The position numbers and the translations under genes are program-made. DNA of 64,000 nt. Source: Buttiauxella gaviniae. Lineage in GTDB: Bacteria; Pseudomonadota; Gammaproteobacteria; Enterobacterales; Enterobacteriaceae. Positions 28,611 to 35,491 of this stretch are shown here, one piece after another. The notes under the pieces are model-generated. The model was not told where the DNA came from, searched no databases, and worked only from the letters and a program-made list of their open reading frames with translations. The stretch is from NCBI RefSeq assembly GCF_040786275.1, contig NZ_JBFMVT010000002.1, positions 3,286,001 to 3,350,000 of the forward strand, written 5' to 3'. Numbering within the stretch: position 1 is the first letter of the stretch; each line of letters starts with the position of its first letter.

Positions 28611-28686
28611 GGATTGTGACTGTCTAACAGGCAAAACCTAATCATCTGATGCTAAAGACTTGCGTCAGGTGATTAGGTTTTTTTTT
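28611..28686 (+). promoter_or_regulatory. BglG-type antiterminator (RAT 1) overlapping a terminator
   Basis: The ribonucleic antiterminator starts GGATTGTGACTG (28611) and ends CAGGCAAAACCT (28639). Its last bases, AACCT, form the 5' arm of an 18-bp terminator stem (28635-28652 with 28662-28679, two G-U pairs), followed by a T-run to 28686. This is the mutually exclusive RAT/terminator arrangement bound by BglG/LicT proteins. It lies about 150 bases before the porin gene. Confidence 0.93.
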
Positions 28687-28833
28687 GCTTTTTATGTATC
28701 GCTGAACGTATTCAGCGATACATGTGACCGCCTGTATTCAATAAAAAATAGGTAACGACTGCCGTAATAATATTTTATCGCACCTATAAATTTCTCCAGA
28801 AATGCAGATAATAACAATGACAGGATGTTTATT

Positions 28834-30159
28834 ATGCTTATACACAAAAAATCTATACCTCTATTAATGTTAATGGCGGGGTGCAGTTTTATACCGCCCG
28901 CCAGCGCGCTGGATTATTCAACGGGCGGGTTTCTGGAAGATAGCCATCTGGATCTCACACTACAGAACGTCTGGATGCTAAATACCACCGATCAGCGTGC
29001 TGACCAGGATGTCGGTGACCAAAACGCATGGGCTCAGGCGATGCATGTAAACTGGCAAAGCGGATGGCTGTGGGACAGCGTGGGTCTGGATGCCTCATGG
29101 TATGGCGTGGAAAAACTCTATGCCAACGATGCCTTTTACGGCCGAGATCTGGTGCGTGATAACAACGGACACGCAGAGGGCTTTAACAAGGTCGGGCAGC
29201 TTTATGGTAAAGGGCGCTGGGGGGATAAAACCAGGCATCTCAATCTGTGGGCTGGCTGGAAGGAGATGTATAAGTTCGGCACCCTAACTTCTTCCCGTAG
29301 CCGCGCAACGCCGAGCACATGGGAAGGCATAAGCTCAGAAGCGGTTTGGGATGACTTCACCCTGCGCGGGGGCATTGTGACTCGTTTTTCTGAACGTGAC
29401 GAGCCTGAGAAACGGCGCTTCATCACGCTCAGCAGCCAGCAGGAGATTGATTATATTGCCACCGGTGATGCGAGTTGGTCCCCCGCGAAGGGCACTAAAA
29501 TTACTTATGTTGTGGGTGAGGCCAAAGATTATCTGTTACGCCACGGTATCGAGGCGAATGCCAGTTGGCCCCTTTCGGATAAATTTAATTTATTAACCAA
29601 AGGGGTATTTTATTACAACCGAGGTTTAAGCGACTGGGAGGGTAACCGCGCCTTTAACGACGATGCGAAACATCTCTATCTGCAATTAGGTTATCAATAC
29701 GAAGGTTCTGAGTCGGGTATCGGCTGGTCAAAAACTAAAGCGCCGCTGGATAACGGGCTGGGGTATTTCTATTGGCACTTTGGTAAAAATACCCGTGGGG
29801 CATTTAATAGCCCGGCAGATGGCGAAGGCAACGACTATATCAATGACGGCGAGCAGATGATCTATTTATACAGTCAGTATAAATTCTCCCCTGAATTTAT
29901 GGCGGGTATTTATGGCAACTATGGATTTGGGATGGAGTACCAGGATGTTTCCCTGAAAGAGTGGGAATATGGTGGGTATTTCTTATGGTCACCGGAAATG
30001 ATTAAAGGATTCACTATTTTTGCAGGCGCTGGGCCAAGTTATACATGGAAATTAACCAGTAAGAGTACCCCATCGTTAACAGAGGATAACCGTACTTTCC
30101 ACCGGGCAAAGGGCATCGGTGCTGCGGTACGCGTGGAATATAAATTTAATGTGTTCTGA
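28834..30159 (+). CDS. OprD-family outer-membrane porin
   Basis: 441 residues from the ATG at 28834, chosen for AGGA eight bases upstream; an ATG at 28825 is also in frame. The signal peptide ends near PASA-LDY, although LMAGC within it also resembles a lipobox. The mature protein begins DYSTGGFLEDSHLDLTLQN, typical of OprD/OccD-like 18-strand porins. It alternates short amphipathic strands throughout, and ends in a terminal Phe after VRVEYKFNV, the usual outer-membrane sorting signal. It is downstream of RAT 1 and upstream of the SurE-like gene and bglG, so it probably admits beta-glucosides or other aromatic or oligosaccharide substrates to the periplasm. Substrate specificity cannot be read from the sequence. 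Confidence 0.8.
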   Translation: MLIHKKSIPLLMLMAGCSFIPPASALDYSTGGFLEDSHLDLTLQNVWMLNTTDQRADQDVGDQNAWAQAMHVNWQSGWLWDSVGLDASWYGVEKLYANDAFYGRDLVRDNNGHAEGFNKVGQLYGKGRWGDKTRHLNLWAGWKEMYKFGTLTSSRSRATPSTWEGISSEAVWDDFTLRGGIVTRFSERDEPEKRRFITLSSQQEIDYIATGDASWSPAKGTKITYVVGEAKDYLLRHGIEANASWPLSDKFNLLTKGVFYYNRGLSDWEGNRAFNDDAKHLYLQLGYQYEGSESGIGWSKTKAPLDNGLGYFYWHFGKNTRGAFNSPADGEGNDYINDGEQMIYLYSQYKFSPEFMAGIYGNYGFGMEYQDVSLKEWEYGGYFLWSPEMIKGFTIFAGAGPSYTWKLTSKSTPSLTEDNRTFHRAKGIGAAVRVEYKFNVF

Positions 30160-34081: not shown

Positions 34082-34096
34082 ATAAAGGAGAAGTAG

Positions 34097-35491
34097 ATGA
34101 AAGCATTTCCTGAGACGTTTCTATGGGGCGGCGCGATTGCTGCAAATCAGGTTGAAGGTGCATGGCAGGAAGACGGGAAAGGGATTTCAACATCCGACGT
34201 TCAACCCCATGGCGTATTTGGTGACGTAGTGGAGCGCAAATCGGGCGATTTTGGCATTAAAGATGTCGCCATTGATTTCTACCACCGTTACCCGGAAGAC
34301 ATCGCGCTGTTTGCGGAAATGGGATTTAGCTGCCTACGGGTTTCTATCGCCTGGACGCGTATCTTCCCGAATGGCGATGAAATGCAGCCTAACGAAGCGG
34401 GCCTTGCCTATTACGACCGTCTGTTTGATGAACTCGCAAAGCATAACATCACGCCGATGGTGACGCTGTCTCACTACGAAATGCCGTGGGGACTGGTCAA
34501 AAACTACGGCGGCTGGGGCAGCCGTGACGTCATCACTTTCTTTGAACGCTACGCTCGCAGCGTGTTTACGCGCTTTAAGAATAAAGTGAAATTGTGGCTG
34601 ACGTTTAATGAAATCAATATGTCGCTGCATGCGCCGATGACGGGCGTGGGGCTTTCTGAGGACAGCAGCAAAGCCGAAATTTACCAGGCGATTCACCATC
34701 AACTGGTGGCGAGTGCGCTGGCGGTCAAAGCCTGCCACGAAATCATCCCGGATGCGCGAATCGGCAATATGTTGCTGGGCGGGCTGATGTATCCCCTGAG
34801 CTGCAAGCCGGAAGATGTGCTCGAAACCTTGCAAGAAAACCGTCACTGGCTGTTCTTTGGCGACGTGCAATGCCGGGGTGAATATCCGGGCTATATGCTG
34901 CGCTATTTCCGCGACAACGATATTAAGCTGGAAATTTCCGACAGCGACCGCGAAGCGCTGAAAGCGACCATCGACTTTATCTCGTTCAGCTATTACATGT
35001 CTGGCTGCGTCACCGCAGATGAAGAACTGAATGCCAAAGCACGCGGCAATATTTTGAATATGGTACCCAATCCGCATCTGGCAAGCTCCGAATGGGGCTG
35101 GCAAATTGACCCAATCGGCCTGCGTATTCTGCTTAACATGCTGTGGGATCGTTATCAAAAGCCACTGTTTATTGTTGAAAATGGGTTAGGCGCGAAGGAT
35201 AAACTGGAGGCGGACGGCACGGTGCATGATGACTACCGCATCAGCTATCTTAACGATCACTTAGTGCAGGTTGGCGAAGCGATTGAAGATGGCGTCGACG
35301 TGCTGGGCTACACCAGTTGGGGGCCGATTGATCTCGTGAGTGCCTCGAAAGCGGAGCTCTCTAAGCGTTACGGCTTTATTTATGTCGATCGCGATGACCA
35401 GGGCAACGGAACACTGGCGCGTTCTCGTAAGAAAAGTTTCAACTGGTATAAGGAAGTGATTGGCAGTAATGGGGCGAGTTTGAAGCGCTGA
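34097..35491 (+). CDS. 6-phospho-beta-glucosidase, glycoside hydrolase family 1
   Basis: 464 residues, close to the usual 470-480 for BglA, BglB and AscB. The acid/base Glu172 is in LTFNEIN and the nucleophile Glu361 is in FIVENGLG. The N-terminal signature [16 protein letters not shown] (about residues 8-23) matches family 1. The enzyme should split the phosphorylated beta-glucosides delivered by BglF into glucose-6-phosphate and an aglycone. I cannot tell which named orthologue it is. The operon ends here, followed by a GC-rich repeat instead of an obvious simple terminator. Confidence 0.93.

Follow-up and report, generated by a model that had tools for sequence, protein, structure and literature searches.

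A predicted three-unit BglG/LicT-type antitermination regulon with an OprD porin and exported SurE cassette in Buttiauxella gaviniae

A beta-glucoside (bgl) locus with three ribonucleic antiterminator (RAT)/terminator leaders was analyzed in a 64,000-nt stretch of Buttiauxella gaviniae DNA (NZ_JBFMVT010000002.1; genome of 4.76 Mb in two contigs), referred to here as the window. Five genes on the forward strand make up three units. The first unit comprises an OprD-family outer-membrane porin (28825..30159; PF03573, E 1.6e-19), for which the NCBIfam search returned 0 matches, and an exported SurE-family protein (30159..31070; PF01975, E 4.6e-43), whose start is probably at 30183 (M9; signal-peptide-like by eye and in the alignment) rather than at the first ATG, 30159. 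The second is a bglG/licT antiterminator (31230..32069), assigned by Pfam and NCBIfam, with a product scoring above the cut-offs of NF007295 and NF046042. The third comprises a beta-glucoside phosphotransferase system (PTS) IIABC permease, bglF (32222..34081; NF007335, 1054.7 bits against a cut-off of 894), and a glycoside hydrolase family 1 (GH1) 6-phospho-beta-glucosidase (34097..35491; NF007356, 651.9 bits against a cut-off of 623). A sequence-only reading of this DNA had labeled these genes porin, SurE-like, bglG, permease and phospho-glucosidase, and Pfam and NCBIfam bear the labels out, with corrections to the porin type (OprD) and the SurE start. Three marks of a BglG/LicT system are present: a CAT RNA-binding domain with two PRDs, a cognate beta-glucoside IIABC, and a RAT/terminator before each unit. 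The LamB-type porin BglH of the E. coli-type bgl operon was not found, the window porin belonging to PF03573 OprD.

All three RATs, identified by motif and fold, lie on the forward strand. RAT1 (GGATTGTGACTGTCTAACAGGCAAAACC, 28 nt) is at 28611..28638 before porin-surE, RAT2 (GGATTGTCACTGCGTATGCAGGCAAAACC, 29 nt) at 31150..31178 before bglG, and RAT3 (GGATTGTTACTGCTTCGGCAGGCAAAACC, 29 nt) at 32102..32130 before the IIABC gene. In the minimum-free-energy fold of each leader, the 3' end of the RAT is paired into a terminator stem with a U run: terminator 1 at 28633..28686 (-29.1 kcal/mol), terminator 2 at 31173..31214 (-20.7 kcal/mol) and terminator 3 at 32125..32177 (-25.2 kcal/mol). The sequence-only reading had suggested such structure prediction; its RAT starts, and its statement that position 8 is G, C and T in RAT1, RAT2 and RAT3, proved exact. 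Position 8 presumably falls within an internal loop of the RAT, as in the LicT literature. The sequence-only reading took graded affinity among the three RATs to be possible; beside their sequence differences, their canonical RAT folds have energies of -1.5, -4.5 and -4.9 kcal/mol, respectively. The pattern GGNTTGN{9,16}GGCAAAACC occurs at exactly three sites in the 4.76-Mb genome, all at this locus, with 0 matches for the reversed control, and a wider RAT pattern recovers the same three sites only, RAT2 being counted twice. Rfam made no call on the three leaders at the gathering threshold; at a permissive threshold, RF03530 (bglG-cis-reg) listed the RAT1 region at 23.5 bits against a cut-off of 80, with RAT2 and RAT3 unlisted. 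Support for the leaders therefore comes from motif, terminator and comparison, and on these RAT1, RAT2 and RAT3 are judged to be real BglG/LicT-type RAT/terminator leaders.

Across the window and 55 named loci, 89 of 89 strict RAT matches overlapped a terminator, as compared to 49 of 400 random placements, a control that is loose. Covariation was scored in 101 distinct RATs from the fetched loci, among which kinship can inflate the counts. Pair 11-20 is standard in all 101 (T-A in 96, C-G in 3, G-C in 1, T-G in 1), with four two-sided changes, a result reached by none of 1000 shuffles. Pair 13-18 is standard in 77 of 85 (C-G in 46, T-A in 30, A-T in 1), whereas the shuffles average 57.7 and reach at most 66. 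Pair 12-19, although paired in 97 of 101, matched the shuffles and gained no support; pair 10-21 gained none among the 101 RATs either, and its invariance is uninformative because the search pattern fixes its 3' side. This set had been pre-filtered on a downstream GG(N)TTTT and therefore cannot demonstrate terminators; the test of 89 matches was made without such a filter. At positions 7-8, where the window RATs differ, TT is present in 81 of the 101, and position 8 is G or C in 7. A stricter pattern, GGATTGN{8,20}AGGCAAAACC, is present in 92 of 295 genomes of the family sample, and its reversed control gave 0 in every row.

Unit 1 is set apart by comparison within the genus. Three congeners have the same dusC-bgl site with two RATs only, dusC lying directly beside the bglG leader. 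Homology between the window and these genomes is lost after 28353 and picks up again at 31073 in two of them and at 31148 in the third, which delimits an interval of 28354..31072 on the forward strand; from 28354 on, the window holds RAT1, the porin gene and surE, whereas the three congeners have fewer than 125 bases. Congeners without the cassette still keep the bglG leader. The name dusC rests on sequence and fits the dihydrouridine synthase that an earlier study placed beside bgl (PMC2646131). Exported SurE (E 1e-60 or better) was found in 2 of 12 genus genomes, that of B. gaviniae included, and the second carrier, G320, has an identical three-RAT layout. On this comparison, RAT1, the OprD porin and exported SurE are a cassette that was apparently gained or lost as a block.

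A CRP-like site (TAAGATGTAAATCACA; 28522..28537, forward strand) lies 73 nt upstream of RAT1. It is a consensus match only, the best in the region upstream of RAT1, with 8 of 10 positions of the CRP consensus, TGTGAN6TCACA. Over 39 units such matches average 7.9/10, as compared to 6.6 in mononucleotide shuffles, and the distance from the end of the site to the RAT is 71-76 nt in 12 of 16 porin-surE units and 57-61 nt in 20 of 23 surE-alone units. A sigma-70 scan returned one promoter-like site, on the opposite strand within the porin gene, against 5.8 expected. Unit 2 (bglG) most likely has its own promoter, because the bglG leader 5' of RAT2 is related to the leader of two congeners. The 138-nt leader between terminator 1 and the porin ATG would suit a different account, in which unit 1 is a hitch-hiker with its own constitutive promoter 3' of terminator 1 and RAT1 is a relic. 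That is very improbable, since the scan found no promoter-like site in this gap and a RAT and terminator before the unit are kept across genera, with covarying stem pairs.

Exported SurE stands apart as a subfamily that is linked to sugar regulons. Among the matches listed for the family sample, 178 of 295 genomes have some SurE match; the exported type is present in 28 of 295, B. gaviniae included, at 57% identity or more, and the other copies are about 30-46% identical to it over the aligned stretch. The other SurE of the B. gaviniae genome is 34% identical to the window protein. When 84,980 species, each represented by one genome, were scanned with a pattern, 55 exported-SurE loci were recovered. 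L116 and L117, whose identity to the query is just 33% and 29%, are excluded, and the counts below refer to the other 53. A RAT was counted before a gene at no more than 4 mismatches and with a terminator of -14 kcal/mol or better; the worst accepted were those before surE at L083 and L086 (3 mismatches) and before the histidine phosphatase gene at L098 (4). By this measure the surE unit directly follows a RAT at 38 of 53 loci. An OprD-type porin gene lies within the fetched stretch in 45, and a bglG or IIABC homologue in 27, including the distant ones at L101, L103 and L106 (29-35%). A histidine-phosphatase-family gene with a signal-peptide-like start is present at 21 loci, preceded by a RAT at 20 of them. 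By these sequence associations, exported SurE is a recurring partner of BglG-type RATs across genera. Carriage of the cassette on plasmids was considered and rejected, as all 160 matches in plasmid records fall below 60% identity to exported SurE. A blastn search of window positions 28600-31072 against 5,426 E. coli genomes gave no match.

Three architectures recur. Type A, that of the window, has the order RAT-porin-surE-(RAT)-bglG-RAT-IIABC-GH1 and is found in Cedecea, an uncultured Buttiauxella, Kosakonia and others, mostly beside dusC. Type B is a divergon, with RAT-histidine phosphatase-porin on one arm and RAT-surE on the other, after which comes (RAT)-IIABC-GH1; it occurs in Enterobacillus, Pseudocitrobacter, Entomohabitans and others. 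Type C shares this divergon but lacks PTS genes in the stretch, and was seen in Raoultella, in Kluyvera and in Klebsiella oxytoca with its relatives. The porin-surE-bglG-bglF order, which the sequence-only reading had proposed to seek in related genomes, is present in several genera as Type A, whereas Types B and C differ. At L044, the bgl locus has two exported SurE paralogues (6962-7855 and 12592-13512), the first about 57% identical to the window protein. Some cassette hosts bear insect-related names, and two host strain names presumably recall C. elegans isolates. In Photobacterium and Vibrio (L109-L112), OprD-SurE stands beside GPH-like symporter, GH3, HAD-family and AraC-GH39 genes, without RATs; the symporter label was given by eye and Pfam was run on L109 only. 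No IIABC homologue was detected in these stretches. The neighbors at these loci therefore suggest that the link of SurE is to glycoside use and not to the PTS alone.

The B. gaviniae genome encodes one full BglG-type antiterminator. A second was rejected: the only candidate matches weakly, at 33% over 103 residues, and we take it to be CsiE. Because there is only one antiterminator, the three RATs, if working, most likely answer to one protein. Whole genomes were searched for BglG at 20 of the 55 loci, and in 15 a BglG 76-83% identical to that of the window was found. In 13 of these its gene and the cassette lie on different contigs; in G309 (a Kluyvera chromosome from a complete-genome record, BglG 80% identical) about 1.4 Mb separates them, and in G312 they are adjacent. 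The best BglG matches in the remaining five were 61, 60, 55, 49 (short) and 32% identical. For 18 of the cassettes that bear a RAT, the fetched stretch is free of PTS genes, although in one case (L075) it is only a 5.9-kb contig. The RATs of K. oxytoca are spread over three contigs, namely after bglG beside dusC, as a tandem pair before a LamB set, and in the divergon; a further strict match looks like chance. The tandem pair (L155; 4461 and 4559, 98 bases apart) precedes LamB porin, esterase-like and NagB-like genes and adjoins PhoU/Pst-like genes (by eye); bglG is absent from this 10-kb stretch. In Raoultella sp. BIGb0138 (the genome of L092), a likely glycoside hydrolase and a GPH-like symporter (by eye) are encoded at L170 6043-9132, between an OprB porin gene and the RAT before bglG. 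From their sequences, the Klebsiella, Raoultella and Kluyvera cassettes and their distant bglG genes are predicted to be a regulon in trans. The sequence-only reading had held that a single antiterminator can coordinate uptake across both membranes with catabolism. The three leaders, the single BglG and the predicted control of porin and SurE by the same means agree with this, but the claim was too local: the cassette occurs in many genera and is often unlinked to bglG, which therefore strengthens the regulon reading.

The best overall explanation, to which we give a probability of about 0.7, is a three-unit BglG/LicT antitermination regulon that includes the cassette; its regulatory part is very probable. 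The steps carried out by BglG and BglF are those of the E. coli and B. subtilis systems. By analogy, when a beta-glucoside is present BglF would stop phosphorylating BglG, and BglG dimers would bind the RATs and block the overlapping terminators. The porin and exported SurE, BglG, and the permease and phospho-glucosidase would thereby be made together from three transcription units, and the unit 1 cassette would join BglG-type regulons in many genera, whether linked or unlinked.

The proteins themselves bear on what the cassette may do. Window SurE has PF01975 with the DD metal motif, retains the NDDG, QSG and GVN motifs in the alignment, and gave an AlphaFold2 model (mean pLDDT 84.6) that fits known SurE structures, with E 3.9e-20 for the closest; its sequence matches such structures as well. 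By a simple check, 53 of 54 SurE sequences, including that of the window, have a hydrophobic extension at the N terminus, and all three active-site patterns are present in 51 of 54; the exceptions are a 163-aa fragment (L114), a 217-aa open reading frame without QSG (L112) and L102, which lacks the QSG pattern although Q71-S72 is invariant in an alignment that includes it. In the histidine phosphatase, Ser replaces the second catalytic His (SSG for SHG) in 20 of 21 copies (L079-L113), the His being kept only in Pragia (L097), and the Ser variant is probably an altered enzyme or else a binding protein. The B. gaviniae genome itself has three matches to the histidine phosphatase, all weak and partial (30-37% identity), which were rejected as partners. 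The missing His, and the K. oxytoca RATs before a LamB porin and an esterase-like gene, would fit a scheme in which SurE, with the Ser-variant protein, is a non-phosphatase periplasmic hydrolase or binder for decorated glucosides, comparable to the xylanase/esterase-like YieL of E. coli. This is unlikely given how widely the SurE active-site patterns are kept.

Those conserved motifs are also compatible with SurE as a general periplasmic phosphatase or nucleotidase that recovers phosphate or nucleosides on plant material, tied to beta-glucosides by shared timing. Known SurE enzymes use 5'- and 3'-nucleotides and short polyphosphate (PMC8475336). Such a role is possible though doubtful, because exported SurE sits behind a sugar-type antitermination leader in most loci, bglG or a PTS gene shares the fetched stretch in about half of them, and the Vibrio and Photobacterium copies adjoin GH3 and GH39 genes. 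Another proposal is that periplasmic phosphatases detoxify phospho-sugars leaked or exported from cells with an over-active PTS. The locus is indeed shared with a PTS that makes phospho-glucosides, but SurE is in one unit with a porin, and in Vibrio and Photobacterium it stands beside the symporter-like gene with no IIABC homologue detected, so this role is decidedly unlikely.

For the preferred regulon, a role in the use of phospho-glucosides is suggested, tentatively. The OprD porin would admit an anionic phosphorylated beta-glucoside, for example a 3-O-phospho-glucoside; exported SurE would strip the phosphate in the periplasm; and the freed beta-glucoside would be taken up and phosphorylated by the PTS and cleaved by GH1. 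Such compounds occur in nature: the honeydew of whiteflies is reported to contain linamarin phosphorylated at C3, and plant glycosides to be phosphorylated at the same position in two moths (PMC8225905); a salicin phosphate was tentatively identified in leaf beetle feces (PMC12745818), and the modular glucosides of C. elegans are reported to be mainly phosphorylated (PMC7641594). Natural phospho-glucosides and a glycoside-linked SurE therefore lead to the proposal that porin and SurE may supply dephosphorylated glucosides to the PTS. The fuller version, a dedicated phosphorylated beta-glucoside pathway built on a module of OprD and periplasmic SurE, joined in many genera by the modified histidine phosphatase and placed under beta-glucoside PTS antitermination, is somewhat unlikely.

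Several observations weigh against the regulon or its proposed substrate. At 15 of the 53 exported-SurE loci the surE unit is not preceded by a RAT; these include every locus from Providencia (2), Orbaceae (2), Vibrio (2) and Photobacterium (2), as well as one each from Erwinia, Serratia, Rouxiella and an Enterobacterales metagenome-assembled genome. The module can therefore exist without RAT control. At two of the 15, L069 and L114, a RAT stands in front of a porin open reading frame that is fragmentary or missing, and L084 begins at a contig end; with the strict pattern in the family sample, no RAT was found at L049 (contig end), L051, L059 or L060. The promoter scan found no consensus sigma-70 site before any unit, and Mixta (L094) carries the cassette with RATs, yet only the short 49% BglG match. 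The change of His to Ser in 20 of 21 copies weakens a two-phosphatase argument, and the window locus lacks the histidine-phosphatase partner. On the substrate side, the phosphorylated glucosides of C. elegans are suggested to stay, perhaps, in the worm body (PMC7641594), and none of the 23 other insect species profiled in the beetle study is reported to have salicortin phosphate (PMC12745818).

If the regulon is as proposed, the BglG regulon grows from the textbook single operon to several units serving outer membrane, periplasm and cytoplasm, with unlinked targets in trans, and the "5'/3'-nucleotidase SurE" annotation of the exported subfamily gains a testable role. If the substrate is also as proposed, a bacterial sugar regulon is tied to the phosphorylated glucosides of insects and nematodes, and phospho-glucosides arising from detoxification or modification in these animals would return to food for associated bacteria.

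Elsewhere in the window, a palindromic GC-rich intergenic element lies at 35506-35600. It is probably a dispersed non-coding repeat, because the genome has 31 copies of its 18-base core, GGGAGGGTTGGGGTGGGG, distributed over both strands. A GPH-type sugar symporter (by eye) is encoded at 37590-38963 on the reverse strand and falls in BLAST cluster k19 with the symporter of the Vibrio and Photobacterium SurE loci. A molybdenum cofactor (Moco) riboswitch (RF01055, 87.2 bits) lies at 12841-12969 on the forward strand.

The sequence-only reading had regarded the layout as not previously described as a unit, and this held in searches of the open-licence literature, in which no exported-phosphatase and porin module under antitermination, no SurE or OprD porin under BglG control, and no discussion of bacterial use of insect or nematode phosphorylated glucosides were found. 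As far as searched, and judging from sequence, the locus appears to be a real, conserved and undescribed extension of a known regulatory kind. In the B. subtilis LicT regulon (bglPH and bglS leaders), one antiterminator acts on separate transcripts, as is predicted here; that system is Gram-positive and, to our knowledge, without an outer-membrane porin or phosphatase. In E. coli, BglG antitermination acts at two leaders. An earlier study gives the content of E. coli bglGFBHIK with its two antitermination terminators, and it also describes the separate bglH-yieL-yieK cluster (PMC2646131). The window locus shares with this operon BglG, BglF, a GH1 phospho-glucosidase and an associated porin and hydrolase-like gene, but differs in having three leaders, an OprD rather than LamB-type porin, SurE rather than YieL/YieK, and an extra unit 5' of bglG. 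For the Klebsiella bgl locus at yohI/dusC, the same study describes a carbohydrate-selective porin beside bglGFB and mentions two terminators (PMC2646131). This locus occupies the same kind of chromosomal site, with a porin adjoining bglGFB, and versions with an OprB porin and three RATs were found in Raoultella ornithinolytica (L156) and Enterobacter sp. 10-1 (L157). Unlike the window, the Klebsiella dusC site has an OprB porin and no SurE, the SurE/porin pair being on another contig in the genomes searched. With the SurE 5'/3'-nucleotidases, the window protein shares fold and catalytic motifs, and it differs from them in its signal-peptide-like N terminus, its low identity and its association with a sugar locus.

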